Source: Planctomycetota bacterium
Lineage (GTDB): Bacteria > Planctomycetota > Planctomycetia > Pirellulales > Pirellulaceae
DNA length: 40,003 nucleotides
Assembly: GCA_963204995.1 (NCBI GenBank)
Contig: CAUJKL010000454.1
Location: 1 to 40,003 of the forward strand
Direction: 5' to 3'
This document shows positions 23,623 to 40,003 of the stretch, in pieces. Made by a program: the position numbers and the translations under genes. Within the stretch, counting starts at the first letter, position 1; every line of letters begins with the position of its first letter. Under the pieces are notes generated by a model, which saw only the letters and a list, made by a program, of their open reading frames with translations, did not search any database and was not told where the DNA came from.

Positions 23623-24009
23623 GTGTCGCAACGTCTCCCCTTGCTGTTTGCTTGTTCCGGCTGTTCCAACGCGGGCCAATTGGCGAACGATCTGGCCGTG
23701 GAACTCAACCGGCGTGGCATCGCCGAGATGTCGTGCTTGGCGGGCGTCGGAGCCGGAAAACCACATTTCCTCAAGCAACTCGCGGAAAGAGAAGTGTGGA
23801 TCATTGATGGCTGCGCGATTGAATGCAGTCTCGGGATTTTCGCTCAGCTTTGTGAACACGTTGACGTTCACATACGACTTCACGACTTAGGTATCCGAAA
23901 GAACGCCTCCCCGCCGACCGGCCCAATGTTCGACGAGCTAATCGAAGCCGTGCTTGAGCACGTGACTCAGTTGAAACAGCCTGCGGTCCATGCCCGCAAG
24001 GACATTTAG
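23623..24009 (+). CDS. DGC-domain putative zinc-binding protein
   Basis: 128 aa from GTG 23623, with GAGGTG upstream. Conserved cysteines match the DGC-domain family: CSGC (C11, C14), SCLAGVGA (C38) and the name-giving D62-G63-C64 with C68 (IIDGCAIECS). Such proteins are small, soluble and presumed to bind zinc or another metal, and are often found near nitrogen-oxide and metal-handling genes. It is the last gene of the NO reductase run; a small hairpin (24,013-24,029) and a repeat follow. The function is unproven for the whole family. Confidence 0.8.
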   Translation: MSQRLPLLFACSGCSNAGQLANDLAVELNRRGIAEMSCLAGVGAGKPHFLKQLAEREVWIIDGCAIECSLGIFAQLCEHVDVHIRLHDLGIRKNASPPTGPMFDELIEAVLEHVTQLKQPAVHARKDI

Positions 24010-24064
24010 TAGGTCACGCTATGCGTGACGAAATGCGGTCGGAATTGCCGCAGTTTTCTGCTAT

Positions 24065-24163
24065 GAGGTTGTGAAAAAATCGTGGGATAGGCTTCCAGCC
24101 TGTCATTTTCCCCGTATTTCTGACAGGCTAGAAGCCTATCCCACCCAATAAAATCACAGCCTC
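24065..24163. repeat. Palindromic element, copy B, at a convergent gene end
   Basis: Arms 24,082-24,105 and 24,121-24,144 are 24 bp each and pair with one mismatch around a 15-nt loop. Outer sequence GAGG-TTGTG ... CACAGCCTC extends the inverted symmetry to about 99 bp. A run of six T follows the hairpin on the minus strand. It is the inverted counterpart of copy C at 34,060-34,154; even the loops are exact reverse complements. It lies between the convergent DGC-protein and hemerythrin genes and could terminate transcription. Confidence 0.85.
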
Positions 24164-24191
24164 TATGCGAAGGCATGACCTACGTTTCTTG

Positions 24192-24331
24192 TTTGGACTG
24201 CGGTGACTTGTCACCGCTTTGCTCTCCAGTGCGAAGCACTTTTTCAGCACCACCGCAAGTTGCAGAGGATCGCGAATAGCTGACTCCAAGTCGAAAAATA
24301 CCAAAGCGGCGATATATCGCCGCACTCCAAA
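24192..24331. repeat. Repeat element with hairpin-forming terminal inverted repeats
   Basis: The left end (24,192-24,220: TTTGGACTGCGGTGACTT...) and right end (24,303-24,331, reverse complement TTTGGAGTGCGGCGATAT...) are about 29-bp inverted copies, and each end is itself a palindrome (GCGGTGAC/GTCACCGC and GCGGCGAT/ATCGCCGC). About 80 bp lie between them, including AGTGC-gaa-GCACT. The same ends recur inside the helicase gene at 37,174-37,405. There is no transposase gene, so it is at most a MITE-like non-autonomous element. Confidence 0.75.
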
Positions 24332-24367
24332 TGTCGCCGCAACTCCAACAAAAGTGCGACACTGGAA

Positions 24368-34059: not shown

Positions 34060-34154
34060 GAGGCTGTGATTTTATCGGGTGGGATAGGCTTCCAGCCTGT
34101 CAGAAATACGGGGAAAATGACAGGCTGGAAGCCTATCCCACTTTTTTCAGCCTC
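34060..34154. repeat. Palindromic element, copy C, probable bidirectional terminator
   Basis: Perfect 24-bp arms (34,079-34,102 and 34,118-34,141; GTGGGATAGGCTTCCAGCCT then GTCA) around a 15-nt loop, followed on the plus strand by six T (34,142-34,147). Outer GAGGCTG ... CAGCCTC completes the element. It sits between the convergent chaperone and helicase genes, as copy B sits between another convergent pair, so it is well placed to end transcripts. It is the inverse of copy B. Confidence 0.88.
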
Positions 34155-34167
34155 AACGCGAAACTTC

Positions 34168-37100
34168 TCAACTGCCGGTTGCTTTCGAGGCGGTCTTTTT
34201 CTTTCGCGAACGTTTCGACTTGGTAGTCTTCACCGTCCCTGCAGCTGCCGGTGGCTGGAATGAACTGGCGTGCTGCTGCTCAAACTGCTGCTTGGCCGCT
34301 TTCGTGATGAAGCGAGTTAGCTCGGTTTGTTCGTAGTCGTCGAAGTAACTGCCGCCGTATTGTGAGGCCCGCTGGCGGCACGGATGACAGACGTAGAGCC
34401 AATCGGCGGCCCGCGTCATGGCGACGTAGAACATGCGGCGCTCTTCTTCCAATTGCTCAGGGTCCGACATGCTGCGTTGGTGCGGAATCTTGCCGTCGCT
34501 GGCATGCAGGACGTAAACGACTTTCCACTCCAACCCCTTCGCCGAGTGCATGGTGCTGAGTACCAGGCGGTCGCGGTCGGCGTCGTCCGGCAGCGCTTCC
34601 TCGCCGTCGGGCGGGTCGAGCGTCAATTCCGCCAGCATGGTCGTGCGATCCTCGAAGCGGCCGGCCACTTCTTTCAGTTGTTCGAGGTCGCTCTGACGCT
34701 GCGGCAGATTGTCGTAACGGCCTGCCATCAGCGGTTCATAAAATGTCAGCACGCTTTGAATCTGCATGGCCAAGTCGCCGTCAGCTTGCTTGGACAGATA
34801 CTGAAGCAGGCTGACCATCTGCGGCCAATCGTCCGCGGCCTTGGCGGGCGGTTTGGTGGCCGACCAGACCGTGAAGTCGCCACTCGCTTCGTTCAACACT
34901 TGCTGAAGCTGTATTGCCTTTTTCGGCCCGATTCCGTCGAGCAACGTCAACACTCGCTGGCCAGCCACGCGGTCGCGCGGGTTTTCCGCCAGGCGGAGGA
35001 ACGACATCAGATCCTTGACGTGAGCCGATTCGACGAACTTCAGCCCGCCGTATTTCACATACGCGATGTTTTGCCGCGCCAGTTCGGCTTCCAGCAAGAT
35101 ACTGAGTTGGGCCGACCGAAACAGCACGGCTTGTTGCGGCAGCGGAATGCCTTGCTGCTGATGTTCGCGGATGCGGGCGACGATGAATTCCACTTGCTCG
35201 TGCTCGTCGTAGCACGTGATCAGTTGCGGCGACGCTCCTTCGTTCCGCTCGGACCACAAATCCTTCGTGTATCGTTCGCTGGCCTGCGAGATCACACTGT
35301 TGGAAGCCGCCAGGATCGGCGTTACGCTGCGGTAGTTTTGCTCCAACGCGATGACCTGCGTCCCCGGAAACTGGTTGGGAAAGTCGAGAATGTTGCGGAC
35401 GGTGGCGGCCCGGAACGAATAGATCGACTGGGCATCGTCGCCCACAATGGTCAGCCCGCGTCCATCCGGACAGAGCCCCTTGAGCAACCGCGATTGCACG
35501 CAGTTCGTGTCTTGATACTCATCGACCAGCACGCAGTCGAACCGGTCGCGGATCGTTGGCCCCGCTTGCTCGTGTTCGAGCAACTCGCACCACTTCACCA
35601 GCAAGTCGTCGTAATCGAACACGTTCAACTCGGATTTCCTTTTGCCGTATGCGGCGAAAAGTTTCGCGAGCGGCTCGGCGTATTTCTGTTGCGCGGGAAA
35701 TTGCTGCTTGAGCGTCGCCGCGAGCGATAACTGGGCGTTCACCATGTAGCTGTGAATCGACATGCAGGTTCCTTTCTTCGGGAACAGCTTGTCGCCTTTG
35801 CCAAGTTCGAGTTCCTGGCAGACGGACTGCATCAACGACTCGGCATCGCCGCGATCGTGGATCGTGAACCGTGCGTCAATGCCGATGTGTTTGCCGAAGA
35901 TTCGCAACAATCGCGCGCCAACCCCGTGAAACGTGCCGCCCCACACGTTGCGCCGGACTTCACTTTGACGCAGCACGTCGCCCACTCGCTGCAGCATCTC
36001 GTTCGCCGAGCGGCGGGTAAACGTGAGCAACAGGATGCGATGGGCCGGTATGCCCTGCGAGATCAAGTGCGCCACGCGATGTACGAGCGTCGTCGTCTTC
36101 CCGGTGCCAGCGCCGGCGATAATCAACAGCGGGCCGCTGCCGTGTATCACTGCGGCTTGCTGTTGCTCGTTGAGGTTGGCGAGAACGGCGGGCACGTCTT
36201 CTGATGCTCTGCCAGACGGCTTCGTTGCGATCGCCTTCTTGGGCGGTGTTTTCTTTTTTCGAGGCATCTCCGTGTTCTCCGGTGTATCGATCCGCAGCAG
36301 CCTTTCCGGTCTGGCTTTGTCAGACTGGATAGGCTGACGTACTTCCTCGGGCTCATCAACAAATAATCGCAGATTTTCATCACCAGCGAAACGAACATCC
36401 CGATCCCGCCCAGTTACTTCAAAGCACCGATCGGCACGAATCACTTCCGCGGTCGCCCCGTCTTCCAATTCAAACGACTTCGTTTCGCCGCAACGCGAAG
36501 CCGCAGCCACCATCTCGCGCATGTAGGACAAACCTCGGATGGCTTCCGGTCGATCCCAGATTTGTGGCGAGGCATCCAATAACGGCCGCGGCAAGAACAC
36601 CACGCACTTCGAGCGAGCACGGGTGACCGCGACGTTCAACCGGTTCAGCCCGTAGATGAACTCGGCTTCCTGCACGGCAAACTCGGGATCGGACACGCCG
36701 TAGCTGACGATCACCGTGTCCGCTTCTTGGCCCTGCATCTTGTCGACCGTATCGACGAACGGCGGGTGCTGCCACATCCGCTGACGCCGCAGTTCGCGTT
36801 CGATCAAGCGGATCTGGGCGCGGTGCGGACTGACCAGAAACACGCCGCGACGGAAGAAATCGTCGTCGTTCGCATACAGCTTGCCGCTGGCATCCCGCAA
36901 CGCACCGCGCAGCCCAATGACCAGCTTGGCGACCAGTTGCGCTTCCAACTGATTCTCGCGAGCGGCCCAAACGCCATCGAGGATCACGATCGTCAGCGGG
37001 CAATTCGGATCGAGACAAGCGTCGACGAACGGATCGAAACAGCGTTCGGGCAACAGGTCCAAGCGGCCCGAGGCAATCTCGTCATCAAACGGCAGATAGT

Positions 37101-40003
37101 CGGGTCCATACAGCAATCCCGCCGCAAAGCTCGTCAACACATCGTTCATGCGGAAGTTTTCAGTGAGTTGCACTTTGGAGTGCGGTGACTTGTCACCGCT
37201 TTCTCCCTTTTCCTCTCGTTCCTCTCGTTCCCAGGCTCCCGCCTGGGAACACACCGTCTTGGAGGCTCCTGCCTCCTGCAATGGGCCTGCAGGCGGAGCG
37301 ACTTTGGAGTGCGGTGACTTGTCACTGCTTTCCCCCTGTTTCGTGTTTGTCTTTCCATCTGTGTTGCCAAAATGAGAAAGCGGCGACAAGTCGCCGCACT
37401 CCAAAATGGCCTCAAACACCGAGCGATGCAGTATCGGCTGACCTGCGGGCGGATCGGGATAGACGCCTTTGACGATCGGCGGAAGTTGCAAGTGATCTCC
37501 GGCCAGCACCAAGCGACCACGACTGCCCGCCAGACTGATTGGCACCGACGCTTCGGGCACGCGGACTTGCGACGCCTCGTCGATCACGACAAGATCGAAT
37601 TCAGGCAGCTTGTCGTACGCTTTCAAACAGGCGTACGTCGTCGCTCCGACAACCGCACAAGTCTGCCGCTTGAGCCACTTGGCTAACTGCTTCTCTTCAA
37701 TCACGTTAGCCGACAGTTCGCCGTCGCCGTACCACGCTTTGACTTTGGCAACTTGCAGCTCGTTGGCCAGACCGAGCGAAGTTTGCAGCGCCGTCACCTT
37801 CCGCAGCAGGTTCTCGATAGCTGCGTGCGTGTAAGCGGAAACAAGCACTCGGAACGGCCGCTTCGCAGCCAGATGCGCCGCTGCCAAACCGAGAATCACC
37901 GACGCCAGGAAGTACGTCTTGCCCGTTCCCGGCGGGCCCCACACGGGCACGACTCGTTGATTGCAGATGGCGTGATAGGCCTGTGTTTGGCTGGCGGTCA
38001 ATTGCAAACCGTGGATTTGTTCCATCGCCATTGAATAAACATCGTCCGCCAGCGGACTTGGCTGGCAAGCATCCATCGGGTCGCGCAGTAACCGCAGAAA
38101 CAATTCATCCTGACCCAGCCGCTGGATCACGTCGCCGTACTTCTGCAAGAACTCGACCACGCTGTCCGTACTGTAATCGGTAAATCGCGGGTACAAGAGA
38201 TAACGTTGCCCCGCTGCGGGCGATCCGTCGATAAACGGCTTCGCGTATTCGACCGTCAGTTTCGCGGGCGTGCCGAGCTTATCTTTCTGGATGTCACCAA
38301 CGCCGACGACGGCCAGATTCGGTTGCGGCTTGCCGGTCCAGAGTTGCTTGCGGCAGGCGTAGTCTCGATATTCCAATTGGGCACGCCGTCCGCCTTCGTC
38401 GTCGGTCACCAGCAGCCATTCGGGAAACCCACCGGCATCGATCGGCATCGCGGCCCCCGAAGTGATTTCGAACTCCGTCTCGCTTGTCGCCCGTAACTGC
38501 ATGACCTTGCCGAGCAACGACTGCACGGCCTGCGGTTCACAACGCGTGTGGCGTTTGTCGAGACAGTCGAGCAGACTTTCGTAGCGCGCGAAGAACGCCA
38601 ACCGCGAAAGCAGCGGGTCGGCGTATTGCTGCCGCGTGGGTAAAGCAAACTTGGCGGCCCAGGCGTAGATCGCATCCGCCCCTCGGTGCCTGATCGATTG
38701 CAACAACTCGCGAGTGGCCCGCAACCGTGCCGCCGCCTGGCTCTTGATCTGATCGATCAGTTCGTTTTTGCCTCGATACCACGCCGCGTGAATCGGTTCG
38801 GCCCGCATGCCGTGGCCGAGCGGAAAATGAAAGTAGTTGTTTCGCTGGAGGCGGAAACGGCTGCCCAGCGACTCAAGCGATTCGGGCAACGTGTAACTCA
38901 CCTCGACCGGCAATGCCAAGACGTGCCCCAACGCGTCGAGCAACACGACGACCGGAAACGGCACCTCACGGTCGGGATGGCTGTCGGCGACCATCAACTC
39001 CGGCGCTTGGAAGTGAAACAGCAGCGTCATCGCCTGCTCGGCCAGTTCGGGTTCATCTGCGTCTTGCAGCGATTCCAGCAGCCACTCGATCAGCAGCCCG
39101 CGTTCTTCTTCGGTCAGCACGTACGCTTGCAGGCTGAGTTGCTCGCGCCACTCGCGCTGCTGATTGAATCGTTCGATACCGATAATGATCTCGTACAACA
39201 CGCGGACCCACTGACGGCGAATGCTGGACGCGTCGTCAGGCGTTTCAGCCAACAGCACGTAAGGCTGTGACTTGTTGCCGACGTAGAAGTTCTGCACCAC
39301 GTCTTCAGACAATACCTCGTCGCGAAGATCCTTCCGCATCGTGAGATGAATGCCTGCCAGATAGATCGTTTGCGCCAGCGGCTCCTTTTGCAGGGTGAGG
39401 AACAAGCCGATGTTTTCGCCCTTGGACAACGACGGCGACGCGGCACCGTGTGTTTGCGGCTCGCCCGTTTCCAACGCGGTCACTTGGCGTTCGAGTCGCG
39501 GGCCGCGTCCAGCGAGCGACGCACAACGCGACAGGACATTGTCGGCGTCACTGGTCTGGAGGAACTCGCCCAGCTCCGTGACGGTCGTCACGTTCACTTC
39601 GCTGCGAAGAAACTGCTTACCGTAGGACGTGAGCTGCGAGATGCGCGAGATGTCGTTATCTTGCTGCATTTGCGCGCGGCAATGATCGAAGTAGTCGCAC
39701 CATTCACAACGATGATAGACGTGCCAATTCGCGGCGTTTGGCGGAGCTTGCAGAATGGTCGCTAGATCGCGACGCAGAAAGCCTTCCAGGTGCGGACGCA
39801 GCTCGCTGAGATCGAATTCACTCGGAGCCGTTTGCGCGCCGAGCCACACTTCGCCCAGTTGCATATCGACCCGCACATCGTCGATTGATTCCGCCCACAG
39901 GATCGCTTCGAGTTCCAAAGCGTACAACAATACCTGCACGCGATGGGTCAAGTGCATGGCCTCGCCGCGTTTCACGTCCATTACCCGCAGCAAGCGGCGG
40001 CCG
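34168..40003 (-). CDS. Fused RecB/Cas4-like nuclease, Dna2/UPF1-type helicase and UvrD-type helicase (5' end outside window)
   Basis: At least 1944 codons; the frame is still open at the right edge. Numbering is from 39,993. Nuclease part: V-M-D-V-K (D6, K8) with Q20-V-L-L-Y24 and C96/C99/C105 match RecB/Cas4-like nucleases of the TM0106-like group, where such cysteines may hold an Fe-S cluster. SF1B helicase: GPPGTGKT (about 685-692), DEAS (about 801), GDHLQLPP (about 826), LTENFRMN (about 941) and DTVDKMQGQEAD...NVAVTRARS (about 1080-1125). Residues about 862-940 are translated palindromic repeats. From M1243 comes a complete UvrD/PcrA-like SF1A helicase: GAGTGKTTTL, VDEYQDTN, GDDAQSIYSFR, LEQNYRS, STMHSAKGLEW, VAMTRA. 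The likely role is DNA repair or end processing. A good internal ribosome site means the UvrD part could also be made separately. Confidence 0.88.
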   Translation of the reverse strand, partial: GRRLLRVMDVKRGEAMHLTHRVQVLLYALELEAILWAESIDDVRVDMQLGEVWLGAQTAPSEFDLSELRPHLEGFLRRDLATILQAPPNAANWHVYHRCEWCDYFDHCRAQMQQDNDISRISQLTSYGKQFLRSEVNVTTVTELGEFLQTSDADNVLSRCASLAGRGPRLERQVTALETGEPQTHGAASPSLSKGENIGLFLTLQKEPLAQTIYLAGIHLTMRKDLRDEVLSEDVVQNFYVGNKSQPYVLLAETPDDASSIRRQWVRVLYEIIIGIERFNQQREWREQLSLQAYVLTEEERGLLIEWLLESLQDADEPELAEQAMTLLFHFQAPELMVADSHPDREVPFPVVVLLDALGHVLALPVEVSYTLPESLESLGSRFRLQRNNYFHFPLGHGMRAEPIHAAWYRGKNELIDQIKSQAAARLRATRELLQSIRHRGADAIYAWAAKFALPTRQQYADPLLSRLAFFARYESLLDCLDKRHTRCEPQAVQSLLGKVMQLRATSETEFEITSGAAMPIDAGGFPEWLLVTDDEGGRRAQLEYRDYACRKQLWTGKPQPNLAVVGVGDIQKDKLGTPAKLTVEYAKPFIDGSPAAGQRYLLYPRFTDYSTDSVVEFLQKYGDVIQRLGQDELFLRLLRDPMDACQPSPLADDVYSMAMEQIHGLQLTASQTQAYHAICNQRVVPVWGPPGTGKTYFLASVILGLAAAHLAAKRPFRVLVSAYTHAAIENLLRKVTALQTSLGLANELQVAKVKAWYGDGELSANVIEEKQLAKWLKRQTCAVVGATTYACLKAYDKLPEFDLVVIDEASQVRVPEASVPISLAGSRGRLVLAGDHLQLPPIVKGVYPDPPAGQPILHRSVFEAILECGDLSPLSHFGNTDGKTNTKQGESSDKSPHSKVAPPAGPLQEAGASKTVCSQAGAWEREEREEKGESGDKSPHSKVQLTENFRMNDVLTSFAAGLLYGPDYLPFDDEIASGRLDLLPERCFDPFVDACLDPNCPLTIVILDGVWAARENQLEAQLVAKLVIGLRGALRDASGKLYANDDDFFRRGVFLVSPHRAQIRLIERELRRQRMWQHPPFVDTVDKMQGQEADTVIVSYGVSDPEFAVQEAEFIYGLNRLNVAVTRARSKCVVFLPRPLLDASPQIWDRPEAIRGLSYMREMVAAASRCGETKSFELEDGATAEVIRADRCFEVTGRDRDVRFAGDENLRLFVDEPEEVRQPIQSDKARPERLLRIDTPENTEMPRKKKTPPKKAIATKPSGRASEDVPAVLANLNEQQQAAVIHGSGPLLIIAGAGTGKTTTLVHRVAHLISQGIPAHRILLLTFTRRSANEMLQRVGDVLRQSEVRRNVWGGTFHGVGARLLRIFGKHIGIDARFTIHDRGDAESLMQSVCQELELGKGDKLFPKKGTCMSIHSYMVNAQLSLAATLKQQFPAQQKYAEPLAKLFAAYGKRKSELNVFDYDDLLVKWCELLEHEQAGPTIRDRFDCVLVDEYQDTNCVQSRLLKGLCPDGRGLTIVGDDAQSIYSFRAATVRNILDFPNQFPGTQVIALEQNYRSVTPILAASNSVISQASERYTKDLWSERNEGASPQLITCYDEHEQVEFIVARIREHQQQGIPLPQQAVLFRSAQLSILLEAELARQNIAYVKYGGLKFVESAHVKDLMSFLRLAENPRDRVAGQRVLTLLDGIGPKKAIQLQQVLNEASGDFTVWSATKPPAKAADDWPQMVSLLQYLSKQADGDLAMQIQSVLTFYEPLMAGRYDNLPQRQSDLEQLKEVAGRFEDRTTMLAELTLDPPDGEEALPDDADRDRLVLSTMHSAKGLEWKVVYVLHASDGKIPHQRSMSDPEQLEEERRMFYVAMTRAADWLYVCHPCRQRASQYGGSYFDDYEQTELTRFITKAAKQQFEQQHASSFQPPAAAGTVKTTKSKRSRKKKTASKATGS
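36265..36282 (-). promoter_or_regulatory. Internal start with ribosome binding site for a stand-alone UvrD helicase
   Basis: On the minus strand GGAG (36,280-36,277) lies 9 bases before ATG 36,267-36,265, in the frame of the long nuclease-helicase gene. Translation from here would give a 699-aa protein beginning MPRKKKTPPKK and containing every UvrD motif, about the usual UvrD length. There is no stop codon before it in the upstream frame. Confidence 0.55.
37174..37405. repeat. Cluster of palindromic repeats inside the helicase coding region
   Basis: Three copies of the TTTGGAGTGCGG(T/C)GACTTGTC family lie at 37,174-37,202, 37,302-37,331 and, inverted, 37,378-37,405. Between them are a perfect 10-bp-arm palindrome GTTCCCAGGC-tccc-GCCTGGGAAC (37,227-37,250) and GGAGGC-tcct-GCCTCC (37,261-37,276). 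All are translated on the minus strand without a stop; the peptide D-K-S-P-H-S-K occurs twice and G-D-L-S-P-L once. They lie between helicase motif III and the L-T-E-N-F-R-M motif. Confidence 0.88.

Follow-up and report, generated by a model that had tools for sequence, protein, structure and literature searches.

The window analysed here is a stretch of 40,003 nucleotides (contig CAUJKL010000454.1 of assembly GCA_963204995.1) from a metagenome-assembled genome (MAG; 9.69 Mb in 1093 contigs, hereafter G000) of the planctomycete family Pirellulaceae. Its subject is a cluster of palindromic repeats, resembling repetitive extragenic palindromes (REPs) and REP doublets forming hairpins (REPINs), which lies in frame within a helicase gene.

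The host gene and its insert

The host gene, recognised from its open frame, profile matches and orthologues, begins beyond the contig end, which cuts off its 5' end and leaves at least 1944 codons. Its nuclease part is TM0106/RecB-like, and orthologues with the same fused layout, 2067–2128 codons long, are present in G001, G062, G026, G120 and G263. Several Pirellulaceae retain this fusion of the nuclease-like region with the DNA2-like and UvrD-like helicases, the frames of G034 and G166 being shorter (1300 and 1280). The features of the locus are the following.

34168–40002, minus strand: host gene, RecB-like nuclease region, DNA2/IGHMBP2-like SF1B helicase and UvrD/PcrA-like helicase
37174–37405, minus strand: REP-derived insert of 78 codons, flanked by helicase motifs III (GDHLQLPP) and IV (QLTENFRMN)
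37303–37405: head-to-head doublet made of the units 37306–37328 and 37380–37402 and a 51-bp spacer; its counterpart is the sole insert in G001
37380–37402, minus strand: GGAG-tagged palindromic unit, first in coding sense, peptide LECGDLSPL
37329–37379: 51-bp spacer of the doublet, found at no other place in the genome and common to the orthologous locus of G001
37306–37328, plus strand: GGAG-tagged palindromic unit, partner of 37380–37402
37259–37276: palindrome TTGGAGGCTCCTGCCTCC, unique in the genome in that form
37228–37249: palindrome TTCCCAGGCTCCCGCCTGGGAA, of a second dispersed family
37177–37199, plus strand: third GGAG-tagged unit, last in coding sense, peptide SGDKSPHSK

The insert is fully open in the helicase frame and encodes 78 residues between FEA and VQLTENFR. 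It consists of three GGAG-tagged REP-like units (of the GGAGTGCGGYGACNNGTCRCYGC type) and of half of a second palindromic element, formed by TTCCCAGGCTCCCGCCTGGGAA and TTGGAGGCTCCTGCCTCC, that sits between the units 37177–37199 and 37306–37328. A pattern scan of the window puts the chance expectation of such units at 0.01, and Rfam gave zero matches anywhere in the window. The TTCCCAGGCTCCCGCCTGGGAA palindrome has 8 sites in its own genome and 57 in G001, where it is often paired at distances of 78–111 bp, and TTGGAGGCTCCTGCCTCC probably represents the inner palindrome of that composite element. A separate third family for TTGGAGGCTCCTGCCTCC was considered and rejected, since this palindrome is genome-unique and has its counterpart in the inner palindrome of the TTCCCAGGCTCCCGCCTGGGAA-bearing element. 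Accordingly, the first-pass annotation of this DNA, which had described about 230 bp of palindromic repeats read in frame within a helicase, was right as to the repeats and the open frame, and its three palindrome families reduce to two. The recurrent D-K-S-P-H-S-K that it had singled out does occur twice in the insert, and SGDxSPHSK-type peptides are found in other genes.

Orthologues and history of the insertion

An alignment of orthologues, proposed beforehand as a check, found no insert residues in the REP-free proteins: the segment is missing from G062, G120, G262, G034, G011 and G166, and from distant phyla. The distance from GD..Q to RM is 52–58 residues in the REP-free Pirellulaceae, 75 in G001 and 118 in G000. 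The net gain over the orthologues (about 60–66 residues) is smaller than the 78 residues encoded because a native loop of about 13 residues has been lost, in both G000 and G001; the earlier description of some 78 extra residues between helicase motifs thus holds for what is encoded, the native loop having been replaced and not simply added to.

At the orthologous locus of G001 (L107), a member of the same genus, there is exactly one doublet, with identical junctions and a spacer that likewise measures 51 bp. A 66-nt probe comprising the spacer and its edges finds a single match in each of the two genomes, both within the helicase gene and 83% identical. The sharing of a single doublet with a unique spacer at an identical site indicates that the insertion was inherited from the common ancestor of the two species, and the comparison shows that the third unit and the half second element were gained later, in the G000 lineage only. 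Outside the insert the two genes differ with a synonymous divergence (dS) of 0.73 and a ratio of nonsynonymous to synonymous divergence (dN/dS) of 0.12, the ratio for the helicase domain being 0.067; given values so low, the host gene appears to have stayed functional with the insert present.

These data bear on two other explanations. An artefact, either a pseudogene or a mis-assembly of the MAG joined at a repeat, could be suspected from the contigs that end at repeats (e.g., C583, C71, C80 and C267) and from a MAG contamination of 7%; since both flanks are collinear and in frame with the same orthologous protein, the junction is seen independently in G001 and purifying selection acts on the host gene, it is highly improbable. 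The other explanation, that the residues are ancestral protein sequence and only coincidentally resemble intergenic repeats, agrees with the open frame and with the presence of an insert in the sister species, yet is refuted by alignment and genome counts and retains practically no probability: the segment is missing in all other orthologues and the genome has hundreds of identical units, most of them extragenic. Indeed, neither of the two observations that had been named in advance as refuting an invasion by repeats, namely ancestral residues in distant orthologues and absence of the repeat elsewhere in the genome, was made.

The repeat family in the genome

The genome-wide search yielded 274 matches to the 23-bp core at no more than two mismatches, compared with a single match for a reversed-pattern control. 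In-gene fractions and neighbour counts were determined in 459 kb around about 100 sites with a home-made codon-usage gene finder. Coding DNA makes up about 81% of this sample, yet 149 of its 168 unique sites fall between genes, and the genes flanking the repeat sites are tandem in 36 cases, convergent in 21 and divergent in 6, a pattern that matches the one described for REPs (PMC3733652). Among 79 neighbour pairs, 70 are head-to-head with the tags outside, 8 tail-to-tail and 1 tandem; the doublet spacers measure mostly 48–108 bp, with modes at 88 and 76–77 bp, and the subfamily with the 88-bp spacer (19 doublets in the sample) is near-identical across many sites. The tag is GGAG in 116 and GGAC in 53 of 174 units, as retrieved with a pattern that required GGAS and allowed up to three mismatches.

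The stems covary. At stem position 5, C-G occurs in 67 and T-A in 61 of 146 units and the Watson-Crick fraction is 0.89, compared with 0.45 expected if the arms were independent; the corresponding values for position 3 are 0.99 and 0.65. The family is a short palindrome present in many copies, mostly intergenic and arranged in inverted doublets with a spacer, as REPs and REPINs are. Repeat copies often lie at contig ends (C583:3–25, C71:10024–10046, C80:119–141 and C267:92–114), and the copy number in the MAG is thus probably underestimated. Within the taxonomic family, 12 of 100 sampled genomes carry the core at no more than one mismatch, with a patchy spread.

The related intergenic copy that the first-pass annotation had placed at 24,192–24,331 is real and belongs to the well-conserved 88-bp-spacer subfamily.

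24192–24331: intergenic GGAC/GGAG doublet with conserved 88-bp spacer
24195–24217, plus strand: left unit of this doublet
24306–24328, minus strand: right unit of this doublet

A GTAG-tagged unit (GTAGGTCACGCTATGCGTGAC) at 24009–24029 brings to three the palindromic families that are interspersed in the intergenic region 24000–24345. A pair of 63-nt hairpins (GTGGGATAGGCTTCCAGCCTGTCA; arms of 24 bp), at least 96% self-complementary and in mutually opposite orientation, lies at 24082–24144 and 34079–34141; the latter sits in the gap between convergent genes, close behind the 3' end of the helicase gene.

Other copies within genes

In-frame doublets of the GGAG family also reside in the isoleucyl-tRNA synthetase (IleRS) gene (C456; ileS profile score 865 bits; the only IleRS copy found) and in the gene of a DUF1156 protein (L223 on C210). 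The latter carries a repeat doublet with a 108-bp spacer and has a weak match, below the cut-off, to NCBIfam DUF1156_antiphage, a family named for anti-phage islands. In G062 an FG-GAP/UnbV protein contains units, as does the linker of a kinase-FGE-sulfatase protein (two paralogues), and in G028 and G061, which represent two other genera, none of the repeats was found deep inside genes. Six calls at the 5' ends of open reading frames (ORFs; e.g., L201, L205, L236, L243, L257 and L265), probably start-codon errors, were not counted as insertions, and a repeat near the 3' end of an ORF (L196) was likewise left uncounted.

All five independent deep in-gene insertions found share one peptide frame (LECGDLSPL / SGDKSPHSK), the probability of which, from (1/3)^4 to (1/2)^4 or about 0.01–0.06, is suggestive only. 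The shared frame, together with the fact that the insert was inherited and not lost, might be taken to mean that the peptide is under selection for a function in the protein, such as that of a new interaction segment of the helicase. Which frames are stop-free and hydrophilic suffices, on the other hand, to explain the sharing and, in view of the relaxed amino acid divergence and the disorder described below and of the unrelated families that occupy the same loops elsewhere, such a function is very unlikely.

The loops in question are indeed occupied by other repeats in other species. The IleRS loop of G001 contains a GTAG-tagged doublet (GTAGGTCAGGCTGTGCCTGAC) with 43 matches in G026, 12 in G000 and 7 in G001, and that of G018 a single GGGCAGGCTTCCAGCCTGCC palindrome, and the helicase loop of G026 contains the GTAG-tagged GTAGGTCCCGCTTGCCGAGCGGGACC, for which 398 kb of G026 sequence yield 13 matches. 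The IleRS loops with inserts are 59, 58 and 57 residues long, the norm being 52, and lengths so near the norm imply that native residues were replaced.

Evolution and predicted structure of the insert

Over the 35 insert codons that can be compared between G000 and G001, synonymous changes affect 2 of 22 sites, compared with a rate of 47% in the host gene (P ~2e-4), and nonsynonymous changes 9 of 83 sites, for a nonsynonymous-to-synonymous ratio (ω) of about 1.2. In the first stem of G001 a paired change, GGC>GAC with CCG>TCG, preserves the palindrome while altering two residues, and the insert folds as mRNA far better than its shuffled versions (z = -8.5). This pattern, from one locus and with small numbers, fits a constraint at the nucleic acid level or homogenisation by conversion or palindrome-templated repair, and points to an insert that would evolve as nucleic acid and not as a peptide, a single dated insert with no constraint at the amino acid level. 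For the first-pass annotation retention of the frame had suggested selection for tolerated peptides; the five insertions in one frame fit tolerance, and the ω and the low synonymous divergence of the dated insert speak against selection on the peptide.

The same three observations (synonymous conservation with an ω of about 1.2, the compensatory stem change and the strong folding) are what would be expected had the insert been kept for its nucleic acid hairpins, through mRNA structure, translational pausing, stability or a role in DNA binding, with selection acting on the palindrome. We regard this as unlikely: the case comes from one locus and 35 codons, slow evolution of the stems could stem from gene conversion between copies or from palindrome-templated repair, the palindromes alone account for the strong folding, and the remaining copies inside genes show no conservation across species.

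The structure of the helicase segment was predicted with AlphaFold2 from an alignment with 29 relatives, a check that had also been suggested. The mean predicted local distance difference test score (pLDDT) is 82, the helicase fold lying mostly above 90, and residues 206–273, within the insert, are the sole stretch below 50. The model matches the structures of UPF1, IGHMBP2, nsp13 and DNA2, the DNA2, IGHMBP2 and UPF1 folds being recovered at Z scores of 21–28, and alignments with DNA2 of human or mouse type have a short turn at the position of the insert. As low scores occur nowhere else in an otherwise confident model, the insert is predicted to be a disordered surface extension.

Relation to known repeat systems

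Rickettsia palindromic elements (RPEs) are dispersed palindromic repeats present in frame in working protein genes, to which they add about 20–80 residues (PMC3733652). The parallel with them drawn by the first-pass annotation is apt as to mechanism: as with RPE-1, RPE-4 and RPE-6 of R. conorii, the repeats described here lie in frame in functional genes, namely those of the helicase, the IleRS and the DUF1156 protein. The likeness is drawn from published descriptions, and the differences are that most copies here are intergenic and that the tag is GGAG or GGAC, unlike the CGTC tag of RPE-4 and RPE-6 (PMC3733652).

Comparable, too, are the in-gene REPs published for the verrucomicrobium Opitutus terrae, for Xanthomonas, Thauera and others (Di Nocera et al. 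2013, PMC3733652), which are likewise tagged palindromes and dimers within DNA-repair, helicase and tRNA synthetase genes; in two Xanthomonas species different REPs even occupy about the same site of recB (PMC3733652). Those REPs are GTAG- or CGTC-tagged, unlike the GGAG/GGAC family of this Pirellulaceae host, and what goes beyond them here is that the inheritance of one coding insert between species and its later growth have been traced. Nor is a planctomycete host, noted by the first-pass annotation, in itself a first, given that GTAG-type REPs of R. baltica have been published (PMC3733652).

With the REPINs mobilised by REP-associated tyrosine transposases (RAYTs) the family shares head-to-head doublets with outside tags, covarying stems, subfamilies of conserved spacer, and a mostly intergenic location with few copies at divergent promoters. 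It differs from them in the tag, which is canonically GT[AG]G (PMC6006769, PMC3686654), and in that no RAYT gene with the GGAG family on both flanks was found in the incomplete MAG. The GTAG-tagged REPs of G000 and of related genomes (GTAGGTCAGGC..., GTAGGTCCCGC...), which enter the same IleRS loop in G001 and the same helicase loop in G026, have another stem sequence and the canonical tag, and are separate families. In the literature on in-frame REPIN insertions no precedent closer than PMC3733652 was found; the kind of event is known, and what is added is another lineage and tag, an insert whose inheritance and growth have been traced, and two loops reused by unrelated families.

Mode of entry and transposase candidates

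Taken together, genome counts, orthologues and divergence show a multi-copy doublet family, an inherited entry between motifs III and IV, loss of the native loop, later growth, and a frame and a host constraint that were both kept. The reading that we favour, with a probability of roughly 0.86 on this comparative evidence, is that REPIN-like mobile repeats entered, in frame, a permissive loop of a helicase under purifying selection. Copies would be dispersed as hairpin doublets of single-stranded DNA, which an HuH (Y1, RAYT-type) transposase acting in trans would cut and paste. Most insertions within genes would be lethal and lost, and the few in-frame ones in a surface loop or in a linker between domains would persist as near-neutral passengers, tolerance being made likelier by the fact that one hydrophilic frame (LECGDLSPLS...ESGDKSPHSK) runs open through the element. 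The native residues may have been lost either by insertion followed by deletion or by the nesting of one repeat in another, and the insert peptide probably has no function of its own.

Three observations weigh against an entry of this kind. The family has GGAG or GGAC at the foot of the hairpin and not the 5' GT[AG]G of REPs and REPINs; none of the 24 Y1_Tnp matches in the incomplete MAG is convincingly tied to it, their adjacency to the repeats, consisting of one gene that adjoins a doublet (L034 on C134), one with a single unit within about 400 bp (C451) and 22 with none nearby, being not clearly above chance; and the missing native loop residues are not predicted by a simple insertion of the IS200/IS605 type. 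With the wrong tag and no convincing transposase link, membership in the canonical REP or RPE families is not supported.

A doublet of the 88-bp-spacer type immediately precedes the gene of the Y1 transposase L034 (C134:477–815 of G000), with no copy on the 3' side. This enzyme resembles REP-associated tyrosine transposases and is a possible mover of the GGAG family; its score against NCBIfam REP_Tyr_transpos is 46.6 bits, below the cut-off of 80. Two other Y1 transposase genes, L041 (C205) and L042 (C499), lie near different palindromes of their own (GCACTGCTGG..., CCATCCGG...), which suggests that the genome holds several repeat-transposase pairs.

A bolder proposal would make the loops standing landing sites, in which unrelated families repeatedly replace the same loop across species with length and frame kept, and in which coding copies are held at the hairpin, i.e., nucleic acid, level, so that mobile DNA would dictate the protein sequence of the loop; we consider it conceivable but doubtful.

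Significance

The helicase insert represents a dated case in which selfish palindromic DNA would have turned into heritable protein sequence of a conserved helicase, and the IleRS copy likewise places repeat DNA in a single-copy tRNA synthetase, both outside the proteobacterial lineages from which such events are best known. Since different families occupy these loops in sister species, the system can be used to test whether such loops are hot spots of insertion or merely the places where insertions survive, and whether coding palindromes are held by constraints on the peptide, the RNA or the DNA.

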